Origin: Parvularcula bermudensis HTCC2503
GTDB taxonomy: Bacteria > Pseudomonadota > Alphaproteobacteria > Caulobacterales > Parvularculaceae
Direction: 5' to 3'
Length of the DNA: 64,000 bases
Assembly: GCF_000152825.2 (NCBI RefSeq)
Contig: NC_014414.1
Coordinates: 186,001 to 250,000, forward strand
A program made the position numbers and the translations under genes. Below the pieces are notes generated by a model. It saw only the letters and a program-made list of their open reading frames with translations, was not told the DNA's origin and did not search any database. Position 1 is the stretch's first letter. Each line of letters opens with the position of its first letter. This document shows positions 33,297 to 45,733 of the stretch, in pieces.

Positions 33297-33436
33297 TAGT
33301 CGGCATCGAAGGGAGAAGGCTGTAGGGAGAAAGCCGAAGGGAGAGGCTGGGCTTACAGCAAGTTCATCGACATTGCCTGAACCAAGTCCTCTTTCGCCGG
33401 TTTATTCGGCGGAAGCAAAAAATGGAGGCTTTCGTG

Positions 33437-33955
33437 ATGAATAAAGATTACAAAAACACCGCCATCGCTCTTCTTTCCTTGTCGGCAGCGTCACTGTCGA
33501 CATCCGCTCTTGCCGCTACGCTCCAAGATAGCGACGGCCCTGTGGAAAATTACTTCGAAAAGCGCGCCGAGCAGGCTGAAAACTTCGGTCAGAAAGCGCA
33601 AGAGACGTCGCAGGCCGGCAGCGAAAGCCTTGACGACCGGGCCGAGCGTCGGAGCGATCTGGCACGGGAGCGGGCCGCCAATCGCGGAGAGGCCGTTGAG
33701 CAGTTCGGTGACAATGTCGAGGAGCGCCTGAACGACAATGGTCAGAAAGCTGATCAGTTCGGTGACAACATCCAACGGCGGGCCGAAAATTACAACGACG
33801 CGACCCGGGAGCGAGCCGAAGATAAGGCCGAGCGGCGCGACAATGCCAATGAGGCCCTCGCCGACCGCGCCGAGAATTACGGCCAAAATGCTGAGCAGCG
33901 CGCCGAAGAGCGGTCCGAGAACCGTAGCTGGTTTGCCCGTTGGTTCGGCGACTAA
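33437..33955 (+). CDS. Secreted, highly charged repetitive protein (LEA/hydrophilin-like)
   Basis: GGAGG precedes the ATG at 33437 by eight bases. Residues 1-27 form a signal peptide (ALLSLSAASLSTSALA). The mature ~145 residues are almost entirely Glu, Arg, Asn, Asp, Gln and Ala, with recurring RAEN(Y/F)GQ(K/N)A and QFGDN(V/I) units. Aromatic residues are spaced in multiples of 7 and 11, as in long amphipathic helices. It ends SWFARWFGD. No known family. The composition suggests an extended helical or stress-protective protein in the periplasm. Confidence 0.75.
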   Translation: MNKDYKNTAIALLSLSAASLSTSALAATLQDSDGPVENYFEKRAEQAENFGQKAQETSQAGSESLDDRAERRSDLARERAANRGEAVEQFGDNVEERLNDNGQKADQFGDNIQRRAENYNDATRERAEDKAERRDNANEALADRAENYGQNAEQRAEERSENRSWFARWFGD

Positions 33956-36174: not shown

Positions 36175-36255
36175 CGATCGTTCTCCGAGACTTATGTGAG
36201 GACACGTAGACCGCGCCCTCCTACGTGAATGGATGTGTTCCCAGCCGGAGCGAGA

Positions 36256-36282
36256 TTAGCACTCTCTCCCCTCGGCTGCTAA
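36256..36282 (-). promoter_or_regulatory. CIRCE element (HrcA operator) upstream of groES
   Basis: TTAGCACTC-N9-GGCTGCTAA against the consensus TTAGCACTC-N9-GAGTGCTAA: the first arm is perfect and the second has two mismatches. It lies about 80 bases upstream of the groES start. This implies repression by HrcA; hrcA is not in the window. Confidence 0.85.
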
Positions 36283-36382
36283 CGATTGGCAAGTAGGAAG
36301 GGGGCAAGACCGCGTCAATAGGCGCGCTGTGCAAATTTGGCCCCCACCCCCCGACGAAAGGAGGGCTTAACTTTGCCCCCAA

Positions 36383-36399
36383 GACAAGCGTAGATTGTC
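36383..36399. promoter_or_regulatory. Inverted repeat before the first COQ4-like gene
   Basis: GACAA-GCGTAGA-TTGTC, a perfect 5-bp inverted repeat 30 bases before the start of the first COQ4-like gene and next to an AT-rich stretch. A possible operator or promoter feature; weak evidence. Confidence 0.3.
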
Positions 36400-36429
36400 C
36401 CAAAATGATAATAATAAGGGAGAGCGCCC

Positions 36430-37269
36430 ATGGCAGCGCATCACACCGAATCGCTAAGGCCGGAGGGCGAGGCGGAAGCCTCAGAAGCGTATGCCGGTTC
36501 CGCCAGTGAGCCCACCACCAAGACGAGTGACCCCTCCCCCGCGACAGAAGCCCGACACCGCCGATGTCGGCGGGCCGCGCTTCTCGACCGACCCGCTTTA
36601 GACGAAGCCTTTGGGATGTGTCAGCGCGCCCCGGCAGGGTGCCATCTCCTCCGCGACCGGCCGTCCCTCTCCACATGCCTGGCCGACCGGGACAGGTTAT
36701 CCGCCCTGCCGCGGGGCACGCTGGGGCGGGCCTATTATGTCTTCACCGAGCGTGAGGGACGGACCGCGCCTCTGACCACTCTCTCGACGGCGGAAGAGCG
36801 CGATGGGGGGGAGGAGGCCGGCGAGCTCAGCTATATGCGCGACCACCTCTACCATGCCCACGATCTCCTGCATGTTCTGACCGGTTATGGGCGGGATACG
36901 ATCGGCGAGCTGTGTCTATTGGCCTTTGTCCGACCGATTGGACGCCCTGCGACCAGTGGCGCTCCTTTTCCAGCGTCCGCCGAGCCCCCCCGCGCCCGGT
37001 GGCTAGCTTGGCTTGGCGGGCTTGGCGCTTTCAAACGCTTTGGAGGCCTGCCATTGTTCCGATGCCTTAATGAGGCGCGGAAGCTCGGTCTTCAGGCGGA
37101 GGCCCTCTCCACACTCCCTTGGGAAAAGCTCGTCGAGCACCCTTTGGAGATGATCCGTCGCCGCTATGGGGTCGGCTCGCCGACGCTCTACCTGTCGATC
37201 AAGGACCTGGCCGAAAAAATTGACGGCAACACCTGTCCGATGCCGACTCCCGTGCTATCGGCCGCGTAA
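36430..37269 (+). CDS. COQ4-like protein, paralogue 1 (divergent N-terminus)
   Basis: The 279-aa product carries the COQ4 hallmark HDLLHVLTGYGRDTIGE, whose His-Asp-x-x-His and downstream Glu are the proposed metal ligands in eukaryotic COQ4, an enzyme of coenzyme Q biosynthesis. The C-terminal LPWEKLVEHPLEMIRRRYGV, then TLYLSIKD, aligns with the two paralogues downstream. The first ~50 residues are a low-complexity Glu/Ala/Thr/Arg stretch that replaces the RRPxxAxxAxxRL and NKEDT region of the others. An insert of Pro/Ala-rich residues follows the HDxxH helix. GGGAGAG precedes the ATG. It may be a specialised or decaying copy. Confidence 0.78.
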   Translation: MAAHHTESLRPEGEAEASEAYAGSASEPTTKTSDPSPATEARHRRCRRAALLDRPALDEAFGMCQRAPAGCHLLRDRPSLSTCLADRDRLSALPRGTLGRAYYVFTEREGRTAPLTTLSTAEERDGGEEAGELSYMRDHLYHAHDLLHVLTGYGRDTIGELCLLAFVRPIGRPATSGAPFPASAEPPRARWLAWLGGLGAFKRFGGLPLFRCLNEARKLGLQAEALSTLPWEKLVEHPLEMIRRRYGVGSPTLYLSIKDLAEKIDGNTCPMPTPVLSAA

Positions 37270-37374
37270 TCACACAATTTCTCAAGGCCTCAAGAAGGAG
37301 ACCCGGTTGCCGCGCGGCCCCACCGAGTGCTCTCTCATCTTGACCCTTAGCGAACATTATACAGATAGAAGAGT

Positions 37375-38067
37375 ATGTCCGGAGAACACCTGTCTGACCA
37401 AGCCGAGAAAGGGGCGTCCGAAGCCGCCCGCAACGGTCGAGAAGCCCTCATCGCCTCTGCCCTCTCCCTGGTGAAGGAACGCGGCTACGCGGCCCTCAGC
37501 GTCAGTGCCATTTGCAAGCGCGCGGGGGTCTCCGCCCCCTCCCTCTACCACCATTTCGGCGATAAGGCGGGTCTCCTCCTCGCGCTGATCGAGGAATGTC
37601 TGGCCCAGGACGCCACCGCGATGATGTCGAAGATTGAGGGCAAAGAACCGCCGCTTCAGCGACTTCAGAGATTTATTGCCATTTTTCGTGAGTTCTTTAC
37701 CGGCCGCACGGTGGATACCGCCACCGTCGTCTTCGCGATTTCGCAAGGGCGGGGGGAGAGTGAGGCCATCGCCAATGCTGTGGACAAGGCGCAGCGGGCG
37801 ATCGTGACCTTCACCGCCGCGCGATTTGCCGACATCCTGGGCATGAAAGATGCCCAGGTCTTTGCAGATTTGTTTTTGAGCTTTGCCGCCTATCTGTCGC
37901 AAATTGCGCAGACCTCGGCGCCGGATCGAGACGAACGTCTGCACCGCGCCGTTAAGCATTTTGAGCGGTTCTTCATTCTCGGCATCGGGGCGGAACGCCC
38001 GGAATTTCTTAAAGATGCCGACTTTGCCGCCGCCCATGCCAAGGCGGCTTCACCTCAACTGGCCTAA
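37375..38067 (+). CDS. TetR-family transcriptional regulator
   Basis: The 230-aa protein has the TetR helix-turn-helix (AALSVSAICKRAGVSAPSLY then HHFGDKAGLL, residues ~45-75) and an all-helical ligand-binding domain. It lies 25 bases before the second COQ4-like gene in the same direction, so the two are probably cotranscribed. A perfect palindrome after that gene and two more before the third COQ4-like gene are candidate operators. The ligand is unknown; a quinone, lipid or xenobiotic would suit the context. Confidence 0.9.
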   Translation: MSGEHLSDQAEKGASEAARNGREALIASALSLVKERGYAALSVSAICKRAGVSAPSLYHHFGDKAGLLLALIEECLAQDATAMMSKIEGKEPPLQRLQRFIAIFREFFTGRTVDTATVVFAISQGRGESEAIANAVDKAQRAIVTFTAARFADILGMKDAQVFADLFLSFAAYLSQIAQTSAPDRDERLHRAVKHFERFFILGIGAERPEFLKDADFAAAHAKAASPQLA

Positions 38068-38092
38068 CCCCGAAAGACGGAGCCCCGCCCCC

Positions 38093-38887
38093 ATGTTTGA
38101 CGGTCCCTATCAAGCTTACAGTCAACATCGTCGGCCGCTCTCCGCCCTCGCGGCCGTCGCTCGGCTGATCAAGAATAAAGAAGATACAGCGCAGGTATTC
38201 CGGATCATCGCGGCCCTCGATGGCCCCTCTCTCAATACGGCCTTCGAGCGCTTTGCCGAGAGTGAACAGGGCCGACATTATCTCAAAACGCGTCCGTGTT
38301 TGCGCACAGCCCTGATGGACCATGAATGGCTCGCCAGTTTACCGGCGGAGAGCTTTGGGCGGGCCTATTATGACTTCATTTCTAAAGAGGGGTTGTCCGC
38401 CGACGGGCTGCAACACGAAATGGACCATAGTGGGGAGCGCTTTGACGAGGCGGGCCCGGACCGACAATATTTTGCCTATCGGATTCGCCATTCCCACGAT
38501 CTCTTTCACATACTTACCGGCTATGGGCGCGATGCGATCGGTGAGGTCAGTGTCCTGATCTTCACAGTGCACTCCTCTTCGAAAGCCTCGGCCGATGAGA
38601 AACAGGTTCGAAGCTATGGGATCAGCCTTATCGCCGCGCTCGGGCGGCTGAAGATCCGGCGAGAATTCCCCAACTTTCCGGTTGAAAAATGTCTCGCCGA
38701 AGCGCGGGCCCTTGGCGATGCCGCGCGCCCCTTGACCCTTGCGCCTTGGGAAGACCTGCTCGACCAGCCACTCGAAGAAGTCCGTGCCCGGTACAACATC
38801 GCCCGTCCGCAGACCTATCTTTCGATCAAGGACAGTATTTCAGCCGCCGATGAGGAATATCGCGACCGGCTGGCCGCAGCGGCGTGA
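38093..38887 (+). CDS. COQ4-like protein, paralogue 2
   Basis: The 264-aa product starts with MFDGPYQAYSQHRRPLSALA, which aligns with paralogue 3 and fixes the ATG at 38093. Conserved elements are NKEDTAQVFRIIAALDGPSL, SFGRAYYDFI, the metal-site motif HDLFHILTGYGRDAIGE and LAPWEDLLDQPLEEVRARY. It follows the TetR gene by 25 bases. COQ4 is a known ubiquinone-biosynthesis protein in eukaryotes and occurs in some alphaproteobacteria. Whether this copy serves quinone synthesis or another lipid reaction is open. Confidence 0.85.
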   Translation: MFDGPYQAYSQHRRPLSALAAVARLIKNKEDTAQVFRIIAALDGPSLNTAFERFAESEQGRHYLKTRPCLRTALMDHEWLASLPAESFGRAYYDFISKEGLSADGLQHEMDHSGERFDEAGPDRQYFAYRIRHSHDLFHILTGYGRDAIGEVSVLIFTVHSSSKASADEKQVRSYGISLIAALGRLKIRREFPNFPVEKCLAEARALGDAARPLTLAPWEDLLDQPLEEVRARYNIARPQTYLSIKDSISAADEEYRDRLAAAA

Positions 38888-38909
38888 GGGACCCCACGCC
38901 TTAGACAAA

Positions 38910-38923
38910 ACCGTCTGGACGGT
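38910..38923. promoter_or_regulatory. Palindromic candidate TetR operator
   Basis: ACCGTC-TG-GACGGT is a perfect 6-bp inverted repeat with a 2-base centre, 22 bases after paralogue 2 and upstream of paralogue 3. Its size and symmetry suit a TetR dimer. No T-tract follows, so it is not a terminator. Confidence 0.5.
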
Positions 38924-39070
38924 CAGTGTATAAACCACCATCGCCCTGGTGATCTGCCCATGGCAGACATTTCCCAAGGGCGTCCGGCCCTCCCCCCCGG
39001 GCCTACCCTTTAAGGCGAAAGACGCCCAAGGTCTCCCCAGTTCTCTTCTCCTATTGGTTGTGTTGCGGCG

Positions 39071-39101
39071 CCGATTGAACAATCGGTTAATGTCAATTAA
39101 C
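39071..39101. promoter_or_regulatory. Two abutting 16-bp palindromes upstream of paralogue 3
   Basis: CCGATT-GAAC-AATCGG (39071-39086) and GTTAAT-GTCA-ATTAAC (39086-39101) are both perfect 6-4-6 inverted repeats sharing one base. They lie 40 bases before the start of the third COQ4-like gene. Tandem palindromes of the same geometry strongly suggest a protein-binding regulatory region. Confidence 0.55.
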
Positions 39102-39141
39102 GTTAAGCGTGTCAGTTAACTCGCAAAACACGTTGATACTC

Positions 39142-39966
39142 ATGGTTTATAATGGTCCCTACGAAGTTTTTACGGAGAAACGGCGGCCCGTCGACGCGGC
39201 GATCTCGGCCTTTCGGCTCGTCTATAACAAGGAAGATACCAGCAAGGTTTTCCGCGTCATCGCCGCCCTCGATGGGCCGGCCCTTGAAATGGGCTTCAAG
39301 CGATTTGCCTCCACGCCCTATGGCCAGCACCTCCTCGCCGAGCGGACTTGCCTGCGCGAAACCTTGATGCGGCACGACTGGCTGGCAAGCCTGCCCGAGG
39401 GCAGCCTCGGACGCGCCTATTACGACTTCATGGCCGCCGAAGGACTGACGGCGGACGGCTTTCAGGAAGAAATGAACCGAACCGGCGAGACGTTTGAGGC
39501 GGCGGGGCCGGAGCGGCGCTACTTCCTCTATCGGATGCGCCATGCCCACGATCTCATCCATGTTCTGACCGGCTATGGGCGCGACGCCATTGGCGAATTG
39601 TCTATCCTGCAATTCACCGCCAATCTCGGCGCCAACAAAATGCCCAAAGGCAAGCTGCACAATGCCGGGGTGAAGCTGATTGTCCTCACCGGCTGGCTCA
39701 AGGCGCGACGCATGTATGCGCGATTTTCCATGGATCGGTGCCTCGCGGAGGCCAAGGAATTGGGAGCCAATGCCAAATCCCTGTTTCTTGCCCCTTGGGA
39801 AGACCTCCTTCCCCAACCGCTTGAAGCCGTGCGCGCCACCTATCGGATCGGCCGACCGGATTTCTACCTCTCGATGAAGTCAGCCCTGGCCGATTTCGAT
39901 GTGATGCGCCGGGCGCAATTGGCGGCGAAGGCGCACAAAAAGACCCAAACGGCGGAGGCGGCGTAG
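39142..39966 (+). CDS. COQ4-like protein, paralogue 3
   Basis: The 274-aa product begins MVYNGPYEVFTEKRRPVDAA, which matches paralogue 2 and supports the ATG at 39142 over a GTG at 39109. It has NKEDTSKVFRVIAALDGPAL, SLGRAYYDFM, HDLIHVLTGYGRDAIGE and LAPWEDLLPQPLEAVRATY. It is closest to paralogue 2; the C-terminal tail is Lys/Ala rich. It has its own 254-base upstream region with three palindromes, so it may be controlled separately from the TetR-paralogue 2 unit. Confidence 0.85.
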   Translation: MVYNGPYEVFTEKRRPVDAAISAFRLVYNKEDTSKVFRVIAALDGPALEMGFKRFASTPYGQHLLAERTCLRETLMRHDWLASLPEGSLGRAYYDFMAAEGLTADGFQEEMNRTGETFEAAGPERRYFLYRMRHAHDLIHVLTGYGRDAIGELSILQFTANLGANKMPKGKLHNAGVKLIVLTGWLKARRMYARFSMDRCLAEAKELGANAKSLFLAPWEDLLPQPLEAVRATYRIGRPDFYLSMKSALADFDVMRRAQLAAKAHKKTQTAEAA

Positions 39967-43133: not shown

Positions 43134-44708
43134 ATGGAAATCGGCACATTTGTCTCGCTCGGTGCGTATTTTCTTCTCATGCTGGGAATCGGCTTTTACG
43201 CCTATCGCACCTCCACCGGGGATACGAGCGAGTACATGCTAGGCGGGCGAAAACTCGGGCCCGCCGTCACGTCGCTTTCCGCCGGCGCGTCGGATATGTC
43301 CGGATGGATGCTTCTGGGCTTGCCCGGGGCCGCCTTCGTTTCGGGCCTCCCCGCGACGTGGATCGCCATCGGTCTGACCCTGGGCGCCTTCGCCAATTAT
43401 CTTGTCGTCGCCCCCCGCCTCCGCCTCTACACAGAGCGGGCTGACGACGCCCTGACCATTCCCGATTATTTTGAAAAACGGTTCCACGACAACACGCATA
43501 TTCTGCGGGTGTTTTCCTCGGTGGTGATCGTCCTGTTCTTTACCCTCTACACGTCCGCAACCCTGGTGGGCGGCGGCAAATTGTTCGAGAGCGCCTTTGG
43601 ACAGGATTACATTACCGGCCTTTGGATCACCGCCGGTGTGGTCATGGCGTACACCTTTGTCGGGGGCTTCCTCGCGGTCTCCCTCACCGATTTCGTCCAG
43701 GGCTGCATCATGTTTATCGCCCTCTTAATCGTCCCCATCGCGGCCTTCACCCAGCTCGGCGACAATGTGGATCTGGCGGCAATCCTCGCCGATATCGGTC
43801 CCGCCCTGTCCGGTGAGATTGCCGGGGGCCTCGACAGCCCGACCCTCAACCTTTTTGCCGGCGCCAGTTTCCTGGGAACGATTTCTCTCCTCGCATGGGG
43901 GCTTGGATATTTCGGGCAACCGCACATCATTGTGCGGTTCATGGCGATCCGCTCCGTCGCGGATGTGCCCATGGCCCGACATATCGGGATGAGCTGGATG
44001 ATCGTTGCCTTGATCGGATCGGTCAGCACCGGCCTGATCGGCCTTGCCTATATTGCGCAGAACGGCGTGCCGATGGAGTTCGTTGACGAGAATGGACAAT
44101 TCGACCCGGAAACGGTGTTCATCGTCCTGAGCCAGATCCTTTTTCATCCGCTCATTGGCGGCTTCCTCTTGGCGGCTATTCTCGCCGCGATCATGTCGAC
44201 GATTTCATCCCAATTGCTGGTGGCGTCGAGTTCCCTCACCGAAGATTTCTACAAGCTCTTCCTGCGTCGCGGGGCCAGCGACAAAGAGCTGGTGATGGTT
44301 GGGCGCATTTCCGTGATCTTGGTGGCGCTGGTGGCGATCCTCCTCGCCTATGACGACAATTCAAGCGTGCTCGATCTGGTCGCCAATGCCTGGGCGGGAT
44401 TTGGGGCCGCCTTCGGCCCGGTCATCATTATCTCGCTCCATTGGCGCAAGATGACCATGCCCGCCGCCTTTCTCGGCATGGTGGTCGGCGCGGTCACGGT
44501 CATCATCTGGACCTATCTGCCGCTCTTGCCCGATGCGGACGGGGTCGCCCGCCAGATCCCTCTCAACAGTGAGCTTTATTCCATCGTGCCGGGCTTCCTG
44601 TTCTGTTGGCTGACGGTTTGGGGGGTGAGCCTGTTCACCCACCCCAAAGAGGCGGTCATCGCGACCCATGATGCGGTACACGCGGAAATCACCGGTGGAT
44701 CGGCCTGA
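43134..44708 (+). CDS. putP: Sodium/proline symporter PutP-like
   Basis: The 524-aa protein belongs to the solute:sodium symporter family: ~13 transmembrane helices, the first with YFLLMLGIGFYAYR, then LGPAVTSLSAGASDMSGWML and IMSTISSQLLVASSSLTEDF, both typical of PutP. It probably takes up proline with sodium. GGGAGATGGC precedes the ATG at 43134. The tadA gene overlaps its 3' end. Confidence 0.9.
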   Translation: MEIGTFVSLGAYFLLMLGIGFYAYRTSTGDTSEYMLGGRKLGPAVTSLSAGASDMSGWMLLGLPGAAFVSGLPATWIAIGLTLGAFANYLVVAPRLRLYTERADDALTIPDYFEKRFHDNTHILRVFSSVVIVLFFTLYTSATLVGGGKLFESAFGQDYITGLWITAGVVMAYTFVGGFLAVSLTDFVQGCIMFIALLIVPIAAFTQLGDNVDLAAILADIGPALSGEIAGGLDSPTLNLFAGASFLGTISLLAWGLGYFGQPHIIVRFMAIRSVADVPMARHIGMSWMIVALIGSVSTGLIGLAYIAQNGVPMEFVDENGQFDPETVFIVLSQILFHPLIGGFLLAAILAAIMSTISSQLLVASSSLTEDFYKLFLRRGASDKELVMVGRISVILVALVAILLAYDDNSSVLDLVANAWAGFGAAFGPVIIISLHWRKMTMPAAFLGMVVGAVTVIIWTYLPLLPDADGVARQIPLNSELYSIVPGFLFCWLTVWGVSLFTHPKEAVIATHDAVHAEITGGSA

Positions 44709-45213
44709 TCTTTCCGCCAGCGACGCTGATCTCGAACGCTGGATGGATCATGCCCTCGGCCTTGCGTCGATGGCCGCCCGGAACGGTGAAGTGCCCGTCG
44801 GCGCCGTCCTCCTCTCCGCGACCGGGCAATTGATCGCCGAGGCGGTGAATACCCCAATCGCGCAATGCGACCCGACGGCCCACGCCGAACTGGCGGTCCT
44901 TCGCAAGGGCGCCCTGGCCACGGGAAATTACCGTCTGACCGGCACCACCCTTCTTGTAACCCTCGAACCCTGCGCCATGTGCGCCGGGGCCATCTGCCAT
45001 GCGCGGATTGGCCATCTCGTTTACGGCGCCGACGATCCGAAGGGGGGCGCGGTACGGCACGGGGCAACCCTGTTCGACCAGGTCACGACGCATCACCGTC
45101 CCCGCGTCACCGCGGGTATTCGTGCCGATGAGAGTGCGGCCTTGCTGCGATCGTTTTTCGCAGAACGTCGCGCGATGACCCGGCCACGGCGTCATGGGGA
45201 AAGCGGCCCCTGA
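44695..45213 (+). CDS. tadA: tRNA-specific adenosine deaminase TadA
   Basis: Converts A34 of tRNA-Arg(ACG) to inosine. The cytidine/adenosine deaminase motifs are HAELAVLRKG (zinc His and proton-shuttling Glu) and PCAMCAGAICHARI (zinc cysteines). The region VTLEPC matches TadA. The start is uncertain: GTG at 44695 (used here, overlapping the putP stop), ATG at 44668, or ATG at 44743. The C-terminal Arg-rich tail is slightly long. Confidence 0.9.
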   Translation: MDRPDLSASDADLERWMDHALGLASMAARNGEVPVGAVLLSATGQLIAEAVNTPIAQCDPTAHAELAVLRKGALATGNYRLTGTTLLVTLEPCAMCAGAICHARIGHLVYGADDPKGGAVRHGATLFDQVTTHHRPRVTAGIRADESAALLRSFFAERRAMTRPRRHGESGP

Positions 45214-45262
45214 GCCTCCGGCAGGAAAGACGCGCCTTCGCGCGCCGGACAGGCGGCGGCAA

Positions 45263-45733
45263 TTATTCGGGGAGGAAGGCGAGGCCCTTTTTCGGCACCC
45301 GTATGGGAACGAAAGGCGCGCCGCCAAGCAGCGTCCCGCTGCCCGCCGGGGTCAACCGAACCACCGGGACGTCCTGCGCGCTGAGGAAGATCACATCGCC
45401 GCCGACCCCGCGCTGGGCCACCAGATCATGGCGGGTTCCGCAGCGGCTCTGGACGGGACGGCAGACAAATTCGATCTGCCCCGCACGTCCATCGTGAACG
45501 AAATGGAAGCGGATCTGCGTTCCACTCGCGCGATAAAGGCGCCCCTCCCCTGACGAAAACCCCTTGGCCATGAGCCCAGAGTTCGTGGTCAGGCGATCGA
45601 AGGCATCATGGGTCGCCTCCTGCTGCGCCCCGCCCGACAGCGCGAAGGCCACCAGCAAAGCCCCAATGCCTTTGGCCGCAACGATGAAGAGTGCCCCAAG
45701 GGGGGGAGGGGGACACCTGCGAGATAAGTACAT
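45263..45733 (-). CDS. Hypothetical secreted or membrane-anchored protein
   Basis: The 156-aa product has one N-terminal hydrophobic helix (FIVAAKGIGALLVAFALSGG) and a basic start, with GAGG six bases before the ATG at 45733. The remainder is unassigned and beta-rich, with two cysteines (FVCRPVQSRC). It lies about 50 bases from the convergent tadA. No family recognised. Confidence 0.6.
   Translation of the reverse strand: MYLSRRCPPPPLGALFIVAAKGIGALLVAFALSGGAQQEATHDAFDRLTTNSGLMAKGFSSGEGRLYRASGTQIRFHFVHDGRAGQIEFVCRPVQSRCGTRHDLVAQRGVGGDVIFLSAQDVPVVRLTPAGSGTLLGGAPFVPIRVPKKGLAFLPE

Follow-up and report, generated by a model that had tools for sequence, protein, structure and literature searches.

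What do three tandem COQ4-family genes and a TetR gene do in Parvularcula bermudensis HTCC2503, and is the answer coenzyme Q synthesis? The four genes occupy positions 36430-39966 of the window analysed here, which comprises the 64,000 nucleotides at bases 186001-250000 of a single-contig genome of 2,902,643 bases. The three COQ4-family genes are co-oriented and are called copies 1, 2 and 3 in what follows. COQ4 is a disease gene, and reports of its catalytic role are recent. We find that the trio belongs to the COQ4 family with intact metal sites, and that the TetR gene lies directly before copy 2. The three proteins would most likely be inducible, metal-dependent enzymes for a hydrophobic carboxylate or ring compound.

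All three copies exceed the curated cut-off of the Pfam family Coq4 (PF05019, 22.9 bits), scoring 53.9 bits for copy 1 (36430-37266), 83.4 for copy 2 (38093-38884) and 77.9 for copy 3 (39142-39963). The match of copy 1 spans just profile positions 54-148 of 221. The initial annotation, made from the letters of this DNA, had picked out three co-oriented genes by their COQ4 metal motif, and the motif HDxxHx11E is indeed complete in copies 1, 2 and 3 (HDLLHVLTGYGRDTIGE, HDLFHILTGYGRDAIGE, HDLIHVLTGYGRDAIGE), taking the form HDLxHxLTGYGRDxIGE in the window. In a wider set HDxxH-x11-E is present in 155/157 rows, duplicates included; the two misses are L123, an open reading frame (ORF) cut at the locus end, and L069, a true COQ4-like frame. 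Residues Y92, H135, D136, H139, G143, G150 and E151 (copy 2 numbering) do not vary across the 63-row alignment used for modelling, which includes copy 1 and leaves out L069.

AlphaFold2 models of copies 1 and 2 (Table 1) were searched with Foldseek against the Protein Data Bank (PDB). At E<=0.001 each matches three chains only, two from 6e12 and one from 3msq. For copy 2 the E-values are 3.6e-8 (6e12) and 6.7e-6 (3msq), with the next match at 0.27; for copy 1 the match that follows has E 2.3. A PDB sequence search at E<=1 returned 6e12 (1.2e-5) and 3msq (0.24) as the sole solved-structure matches. These entries are Nostoc Alr8543 with magnesium and oleic acid (6e12) and Npun02000094 (3msq); despite the fold match, identity in the fold alignment is 22% and 18%, respectively. 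Passages of PMC9774615 describe the magnesium of Alr8543 as held by the same H, D, H and E, and the protein as crystallised with oleic acid. Decarboxylase chemistry would fit such a metal site because the reconstructed ancestral animal COQ4, for which motif double mutants were assayed, is a Zn-dependent C1 decarboxylase according to passages of PMC7615680. Like human and yeast COQ4 (PF05019), the trio lies above the Pfam cut-off and has HDxxHx11E, with the COQ4 fold modelled for copies 1 and 2; unlike them, it has the subfamily motif GYGRD and is a tandem triplicate, in a genome that keeps UbiD and UbiX and shows no ubi gene among the scanned neighbours. The three copies are without an NCBIfam match at E<=0.01.

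The trio accounts for all COQ4-family matches in the whole genome at E<=0.001. Copies 2 and 3 are 54% identical. In a 63-row tree of relatives from the order the trio forms one clade (98/89) within which copies 2 and 3 are sisters (100/87). A 134-row FastTree supports the trio clade at 0.90, and a tree of 34 chosen rows, where the branch of copy 1 is very long, gives it 91/90 (not starred). The loci fetched for the 63- and 134-row trees represent 40 of the 65 other family-draw places and part of the order-draw places. The 134-row tree leaves out L103, L104, L106, L110 and L119 (very long branches), L069 and 10 identical rows (144 to 134), and also L128, L130, L160 and L197 (places shared with other loci). 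Profile searches place the copies inside the COQ4 family, the copies are not each orthologous to single-copy genes at unlinked loci of relatives, and the lineage-specific expansion foreseen by the initial annotation is recovered in all three trees. Judged by these sequences, the trio is a duplication within one lineage, and tandem duplication would be its source.

The nearest genus relative, G025, has a single COQ4-like gene, 51% identical to copy 2, and its gene order (groEL, groES, COQ4, DUF2807, symporter) puts it in the same place as the trio. The stretches fetched beside groES from the remaining eight genus members (just 3.8 kb for L227 of G136) hold no COQ4 match; 7/8 of these members, L223 being the exception, have a homologue of window gene 44689-45327 there. 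Among the other family genomes with fetched COQ4 loci, 27/30 carry a copy of another clade, which holds none of the window trio and is frequently found beside an aldolase gene and ruvB. Inspection of match places revealed no tandem COQ4 array in 99 other order-draw or 61 other family genomes, and none besides the window's among loci L063-L207. The class draw has two tandem or near-tandem pairs (G255 and G284) among 288 other genomes; no second tandem trio was found in the genomes searched. Unlinked multiple COQ4-like copies per genome are not rare in the order and class draws. COQ4-family genes are patchy, occurring in 27/289 class-draw and 67/100 order-draw genomes (own genome in both).

Copy 1 is the fastest-evolving of the three, with an end branch of 2.05 against 0.45 and 0.53 for the others. 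It is also the copy for which a replaced N-terminus and a Pro/Ala insert had been proposed, and both features hold: no clear counterpart of the relatives' first ~40 residues was found within 36180-36700, in-frame similarity starts at copy 2 residue 42, and the insert, which contains several Pro and Ala, aligns C-terminal to the motif. A frameshifted N-terminus in another frame of 36180-36700 was considered and rejected (best out-of-frame E 0.012 in 62 queries). The amino-acid make-up of copy 1 is odd, and its first 47 codons have flat guanine-plus-cytosine (GC) content at the three codon positions. Alignment A2 has 36 positions without variation in its other ten rows, of which copy 1 keeps 29; for copies 2 and 3 the count is 36/36 of the positions invariant without them. 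Copy 1 keeps 7/7 positions invariant in 62 other rows.

The regulator, with 61.9 bits to TetR_N, is placed as first described: its stop codon finishes at 38067, and 25 bases separate it from the copy 2 ATG at 38093. Mechanical ORF starts put copy 2 inside tetR and copy 3 at GTG 39109; homology sets 38093 and 39142. Conservation of this adjacency, suggested as a check on the initial annotation, was found in four other genomes, where a TetR homologue stands directly 5' of a COQ4-like gene on the same strand: L065 (G074), L068 (G064), L129 (OFTM276) and L131 (RI_48). In these four loci the two genes overlap by 4-17 bases (mechanical starts). G064 and G074 are of the same genus, and G623 is the contig of L129. 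The window TetR is 34 and 35% identical over its full length to the regulators of L065 and L068. Of 398 order genomes, five have a window-type TetR at E<=1e-22 (own, G064, G074, G623 and G084); COQ4 adjoins it in four of the five, own included, and in G084 a cytochrome P450 (P450) gene overlaps it. Two more window-type TetRs (G262 and G365; E<=1e-20), not beside COQ4, come from 289 class genomes. Other TetRs are divergent, ~110-180 bases from COQ4-like genes, at L212, L213, L214 and L216. Across 145 loci, TetRs within 300 bases of COQ4 are co-directional in at least four cases, divergent in at least four and downstream in at least two, a lower bound from a profile of three TetRs with related loci counted apart. 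The passages of PMC11925935 name no TetR-Coq4 pair.

The best palindrome 5' of tetR is GATC-centred in 7/7 relatives (e.g. GTAACGATCATTAC and TGTATCGATCGCTACA), four with COQ4 (L130, L068, L129 and L131) and three without it (L126, L127 and L220), and these palindromes lie near a TTGACA-like hexamer. Taken alone each is moderately rare, being matched by 5 to 126 of 1000 first-order Markov resamples, a control applied to palindromes noticed before the test. At L220 (1384-3386, G084) it is the cytochrome P450 gene that the window-type tetR overlaps, with the GATC-centred palindrome ahead. The TetR is probably no chance neighbour of COQ4, because the pairing recurs in four other genomes and the palindrome recurs at seven relatives' tetR; a TetR-COQ4 unit with self-control is plausible in those relatives. 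The arrangement is like that of TetR-autoregulated enzyme units (PF00440) in having TetR directly 5' on the same strand and, in relatives, palindromes near a hexamer; it is unlike them in its COQ4-like partner and in the missing window palindrome. The window TetR reaches the cut-off of none of the NCBIfam TetR models listed (best BetI, 50.5 bits versus 201.3).

The initial annotation took COQ4 to be normally a coenzyme Q gene, and that it has this role here is not supported: UbiD, UbiX and UbiG have one match each above cut-off elsewhere in the genome, and the distribution of COQ4-like genes is patchy. UbiD is present in 21/21 family genomes of the draw. COQ4-like genes occur in 23/35 UbiD-less and 44/65 UbiD-bearing order genomes (Fisher p 1.0, or p 0.66 when a broken fragment in G077 is counted as absence), and the genus member G030 shows no COQ4 match. 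A coenzyme-Q C1 decarboxylase would be expected where the other decarboxylase is absent, or to track its loss, and neither pattern was found. No ubi/coq protein was detected among the ten window neighbours scanned besides the trio and TetR, in line with the original remark that none is adjacent. With UbiD, UbiX and UbiG all encoded, and COQ4-like genes showing no association with the loss of UbiD, a coenzyme-Q role for the trio is unlikely. Replacement of a lost UbiD by COQ4 was rejected for this genome, which has UbiD and UbiX, and as a trend in the order draw, where the association is absent.

UbiD/UbiX and UbiN act on the same ring position as animal COQ4 (passages of PMC10626278 and PMC7615680); they belong to protein families other than COQ4. 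For Rhodobacter, passages of PMC10626278 describe an aerobic UbiD-independent C1 route through UbiN. In the order draw 35/100 genomes have no UbiD match (all 20 of family f2 and parts of f3, f4 and f5), and 12 of these 35 also have no COQ4 match. In genomes with neither match another C1 decarboxylase should therefore act, UbiN being a candidate. The open-access papers searched yielded nothing on Coq4 with alphaproteobacteria and decarboxylation, on Coq4 in Parvularcula, or on 'Coq4 family protein'.

Gene neighbours were surveyed at 41 chosen loci, among them L065, L129, L131, L212, L214 and L216, already known to carry TetR. Controls, genes four to five places away, cover the first 82 of 127 proteins, the last loci having none; the reading of locus gene order excluded 16 loci without a COQ4 gene call. 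TetR_N, with 5 cases, is the commonest family in the 82 direct neighbours, followed by alpha/beta hydrolases with 4 and short-chain dehydrogenases with 3. In the 82 distant controls amidohydrolase is the single family reaching 3, and acyl-CoA dehydrogenases appear twice. The Henriciella locus L105 reads GntR, NMO (FMN-type), COQ4, Ltp2-like aldolase, ChsH2-type OB/Zn protein and two acyl-CoA dehydrogenases, together with a divergent P450 nearest CYP153A7 (E 1e-185). Its aldolase is nearest the lipid-transfer protein 6ok1 (E 2e-68), which we take to be Ltp2. Operons of this type possibly encode a pathway that degrades lipid side chains and includes a COQ4-like step. Clusters matching L105 1926-10108 are found in L145, L151-L153, L192, L193 and L204 (Henriciella and sphingomonads), where Pfam scans were run on L105 only and the Sphingorhabdus/Parasphingorhabdus and Qipengyuania loci were assigned by sequence clusters. 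In several Luminiphilus/Halieaceae loci COQ4 is followed by two genes of the L105-type dehydrogenase cluster, and in L064 (clade A) a flavin monooxygenase gene is 3' of COQ4. Passages of PMC11925935 list a Coq4-annotated gene of Mycobacterium abscessus whose probable operon also encodes an epoxide hydrolase, a zinc-type alcohol dehydrogenase and a luciferase-like monooxygenase. These neighbours elsewhere and the oleate in Alr8543 point to hydrophobic substrates, none named.

On the evidence above we regard the trio and its TetR as an accessory, inducible, metal-dependent function on a hydrophobic ligand, distinct from the coenzyme-Q C1 step, a reading we hold to be evenly poised between right and wrong. 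The trio probably does a job other than coenzyme Q, on a greasy compound. Tandem duplication would have produced the three copies beside groESL. The TetR would repress its own unit until a hydrophobic ligand arrives, and the COQ4-like proteins, with their metal and greasy pocket, would modify that ligand or its product, for example by decarboxylation or oxidative decarboxylation. The copies may have diverged to take different substrates or to form a hetero-oligomer, and the C1 step of coenzyme-Q synthesis would be left to UbiD and UbiX. Tentatively, and with more doubt than confidence, one may go further and imagine a ligand-switched TetR-COQ4 module in alphaproteobacteria that would detect a quinone-like or isoprenoid-like compound, foreign or recycled, and decarboxylate or hydroxylate it outside coenzyme-Q synthesis, and that was tripled and diversified in Parvularcula. 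The inducible quinone or isoprenoid reaction suggested by the initial annotation is possible, in a window whose tetR is without the relatives' palindrome; overall its interpretation is partly supported. Bacterial COQ4 relatives with a candidate ligand-responsive switch would offer a simple system for metal-site chemistry besides coenzyme Q, and the TetR inducer would reveal the substrate class. If the trio is a plain duplication its interest is modest.

Four other explanations were weighed. The copies could be coenzyme-Q isozymes that carry out (oxidative) C1 decarboxylation under some condition, such as UbiD failure, with TetR as the switch. COQ4 does perform this step in animals (passages of PMC7615680 and PMC11495197), and another alphaproteobacterium has UbiN as a second, aerobic C1 route beside UbiD (PMC10626278, in passages); yet UbiD and UbiX are in this genome and UbiD is in every family genome of the draw, COQ4 shows no association with UbiD loss, the ten scanned neighbours contain no ubi/coq gene and G030 does without a COQ4 match, so that we consider isozymes unlikely. 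A similar degree of doubt attaches to non-catalytic lipid carriers or scaffolds that bind quinone, fatty acid or isoprenoid, with copies differing by partner and not by reaction. COQ4 as organiser of the coenzyme-Q complex (proposed in passages of PMC11495197), the oleic acid in crystals of Alr8543 (PMC9774615, in passages) and the open frame of L069 without HDxx suit such a role, which is hard to square with motif residues H, D, H and E that are invariant in 63 alignment rows, fast copy 1 included (L069 being outside these).

Lipid or isoprenoid catabolism, meaning the breakdown of branched or long-chain lipids, alkanes or steroid-like side chains, would be in keeping with the L105-type operons, the Luminiphilus/Halieaceae dehydrogenase pairs, the L064 flavin monooxygenase, the P450 beside the TetR homologue of G084 and the probable Mycobacterium abscessus operon (PMC11925935, in passages). 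Apart from L064, those COQ4-like genes nevertheless fall outside clade A where placed (L105, L145 and L180 in the 34-row tree, L098 of G084 in the 63-row tree). The commonest direct-neighbour families are instead TetR, alpha/beta hydrolases and short-chain dehydrogenases, acyl-CoA dehydrogenases also occur twice in the controls, and the zinc-type alcohol dehydrogenase gene, second after copy 3, is the one gene near the trio in keeping with it; we rate catabolism as rather doubtful. Plain amplification with no joint function, in which TetR would serve copy 2 alone and copy 1 would be a degenerate leftover, draws on the long branch of copy 1, its odd make-up, the flat GC of its first 47 codons and its 29/36 invariant positions. 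The same copy retains the full metal motif, 7/7 invariant positions, an open frame of 279 codons and a core modelled as COQ4, which makes this explanation quite improbable.

Several observations count against the preferred reading of an accessory, inducible function. Copy 1 has a long branch on which its placement depends, and in the 34-row tree an approximately unbiased (AU) test does not reject an alternative (p 0.062) that joins copies 2 and 3 to L063 and sets copy 1 apart. L131 lies outside clade A in the 34-row tree and enters the clade at only 0.516 in the FastTree. The nearest relative, L063, has a COQ4-like gene without a window-type TetR. The window tetR has no GATC-centred palindrome: the candidate site at 37340..37363 has the position of the relatives' operators but not their palindrome, the exact sequence TGTANNGATCNNTACA occurs 0 times in the whole genome, the canonical operator has 2 matches in the window at 3 mismatches (1.28 expected) with none near the trio, and nothing like the second L130 site was seen in the window. 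Regulation of the window genes is thus inferred from homology. No shared functional signal was found from neighbours over the whole branch, the contexts being mixed, and no window neighbour names a substrate. Finally, L069 (5968-6795), the second COQ4-like gene of G064 and a member of another clade, has an open frame from which the HDxx part of the motif is missing, reading AHVITGYGRD where its sisters read HDLWHVITGYGRD; the metal site should therefore be dispensable in some family members. L069 is short of four residues of the HDxxH motif, and its genome retains an intact TetR-paired copy elsewhere.

Table 1. Features of the COQ4-TetR locus, in window coordinates (aa, amino acids; AF2, AlphaFold2; pLDDT, predicted local distance difference test; pTM, predicted template modelling score)
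Feature	Coordinates	Strand	Details
COQ4-like copy 1	36430..37269	+	279 aa; Pfam E 1.9e-14; AF2 mean pLDDT 81.0; Foldseek 6e12 E 3.3e-7
Candidate promoter/operator 5' of tetR	37340..37363	+	TTGACC then TTAGCGAACATTATACA; weak, putative
TetR-family regulator	37375..38067	+	230 aa; Pfam TetR_N 61.9 bits, E 4.8e-17 over 37375-38064
COQ4-like copy 2	38093..38887	+	264 aa; Pfam E 1.9e-23; AF2 mean pLDDT 94.1, pTM 0.91 (63-row alignment)
Two short inverted repeats (CCGATTGAACAATCGG, GTTAATGTCAATTAAC)	39071..39101		41-71 bases 5' of copy 3
COQ4-like copy 3	39142..39966	+	274 aa; Pfam E 8.8e-22; sister of copy 2

The trio is preceded by groES and groEL on its 5' side and followed 3' by genes for a DUF2147 protein, a zinc-type alcohol dehydrogenase, a DUF2807 protein and a sodium:solute symporter. 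The inverted repeats ahead of copy 3 are a possible control element of its own. A promoter and terminator scan gave 3 promoter-like hits versus 1.0 expected and 3 terminator-like hits versus 3.8, none of them between the genes of the locus. A foreign island was rejected on composition, as the GC values at 36-40 kb (0.617 and 0.592) lie within the window range of 0.557-0.663. A plasmid-borne module was likewise rejected, relatives being found in 5/72,556 plasmid records, every one at <60% identity.

Elsewhere in the family, COQ4-like genes adjoin P-II and glutamine synthetase genes in L070, L107, L109, L144, L154 and L158, a conserved position (L070 scanned, the others by sequence cluster). A very divergent COQ4-family protein (HDLWHITAGYETTALHE, branch 5.18) is encoded at L103 5926-6984, L104 5589-6647, L106 5477-6607 and L110 5859-6911. 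Its gene adjoins fumarylacetoacetate-hydrolase-family and short-chain dehydrogenase genes (scanned in L103 only), and here the COQ4 fold is possibly used far from quinones. Within the window, beyond the groEL end, 33422-33955 encodes a charged, repeat-like protein of 177 residues with weak apolipoprotein-like matches, below cut-off.

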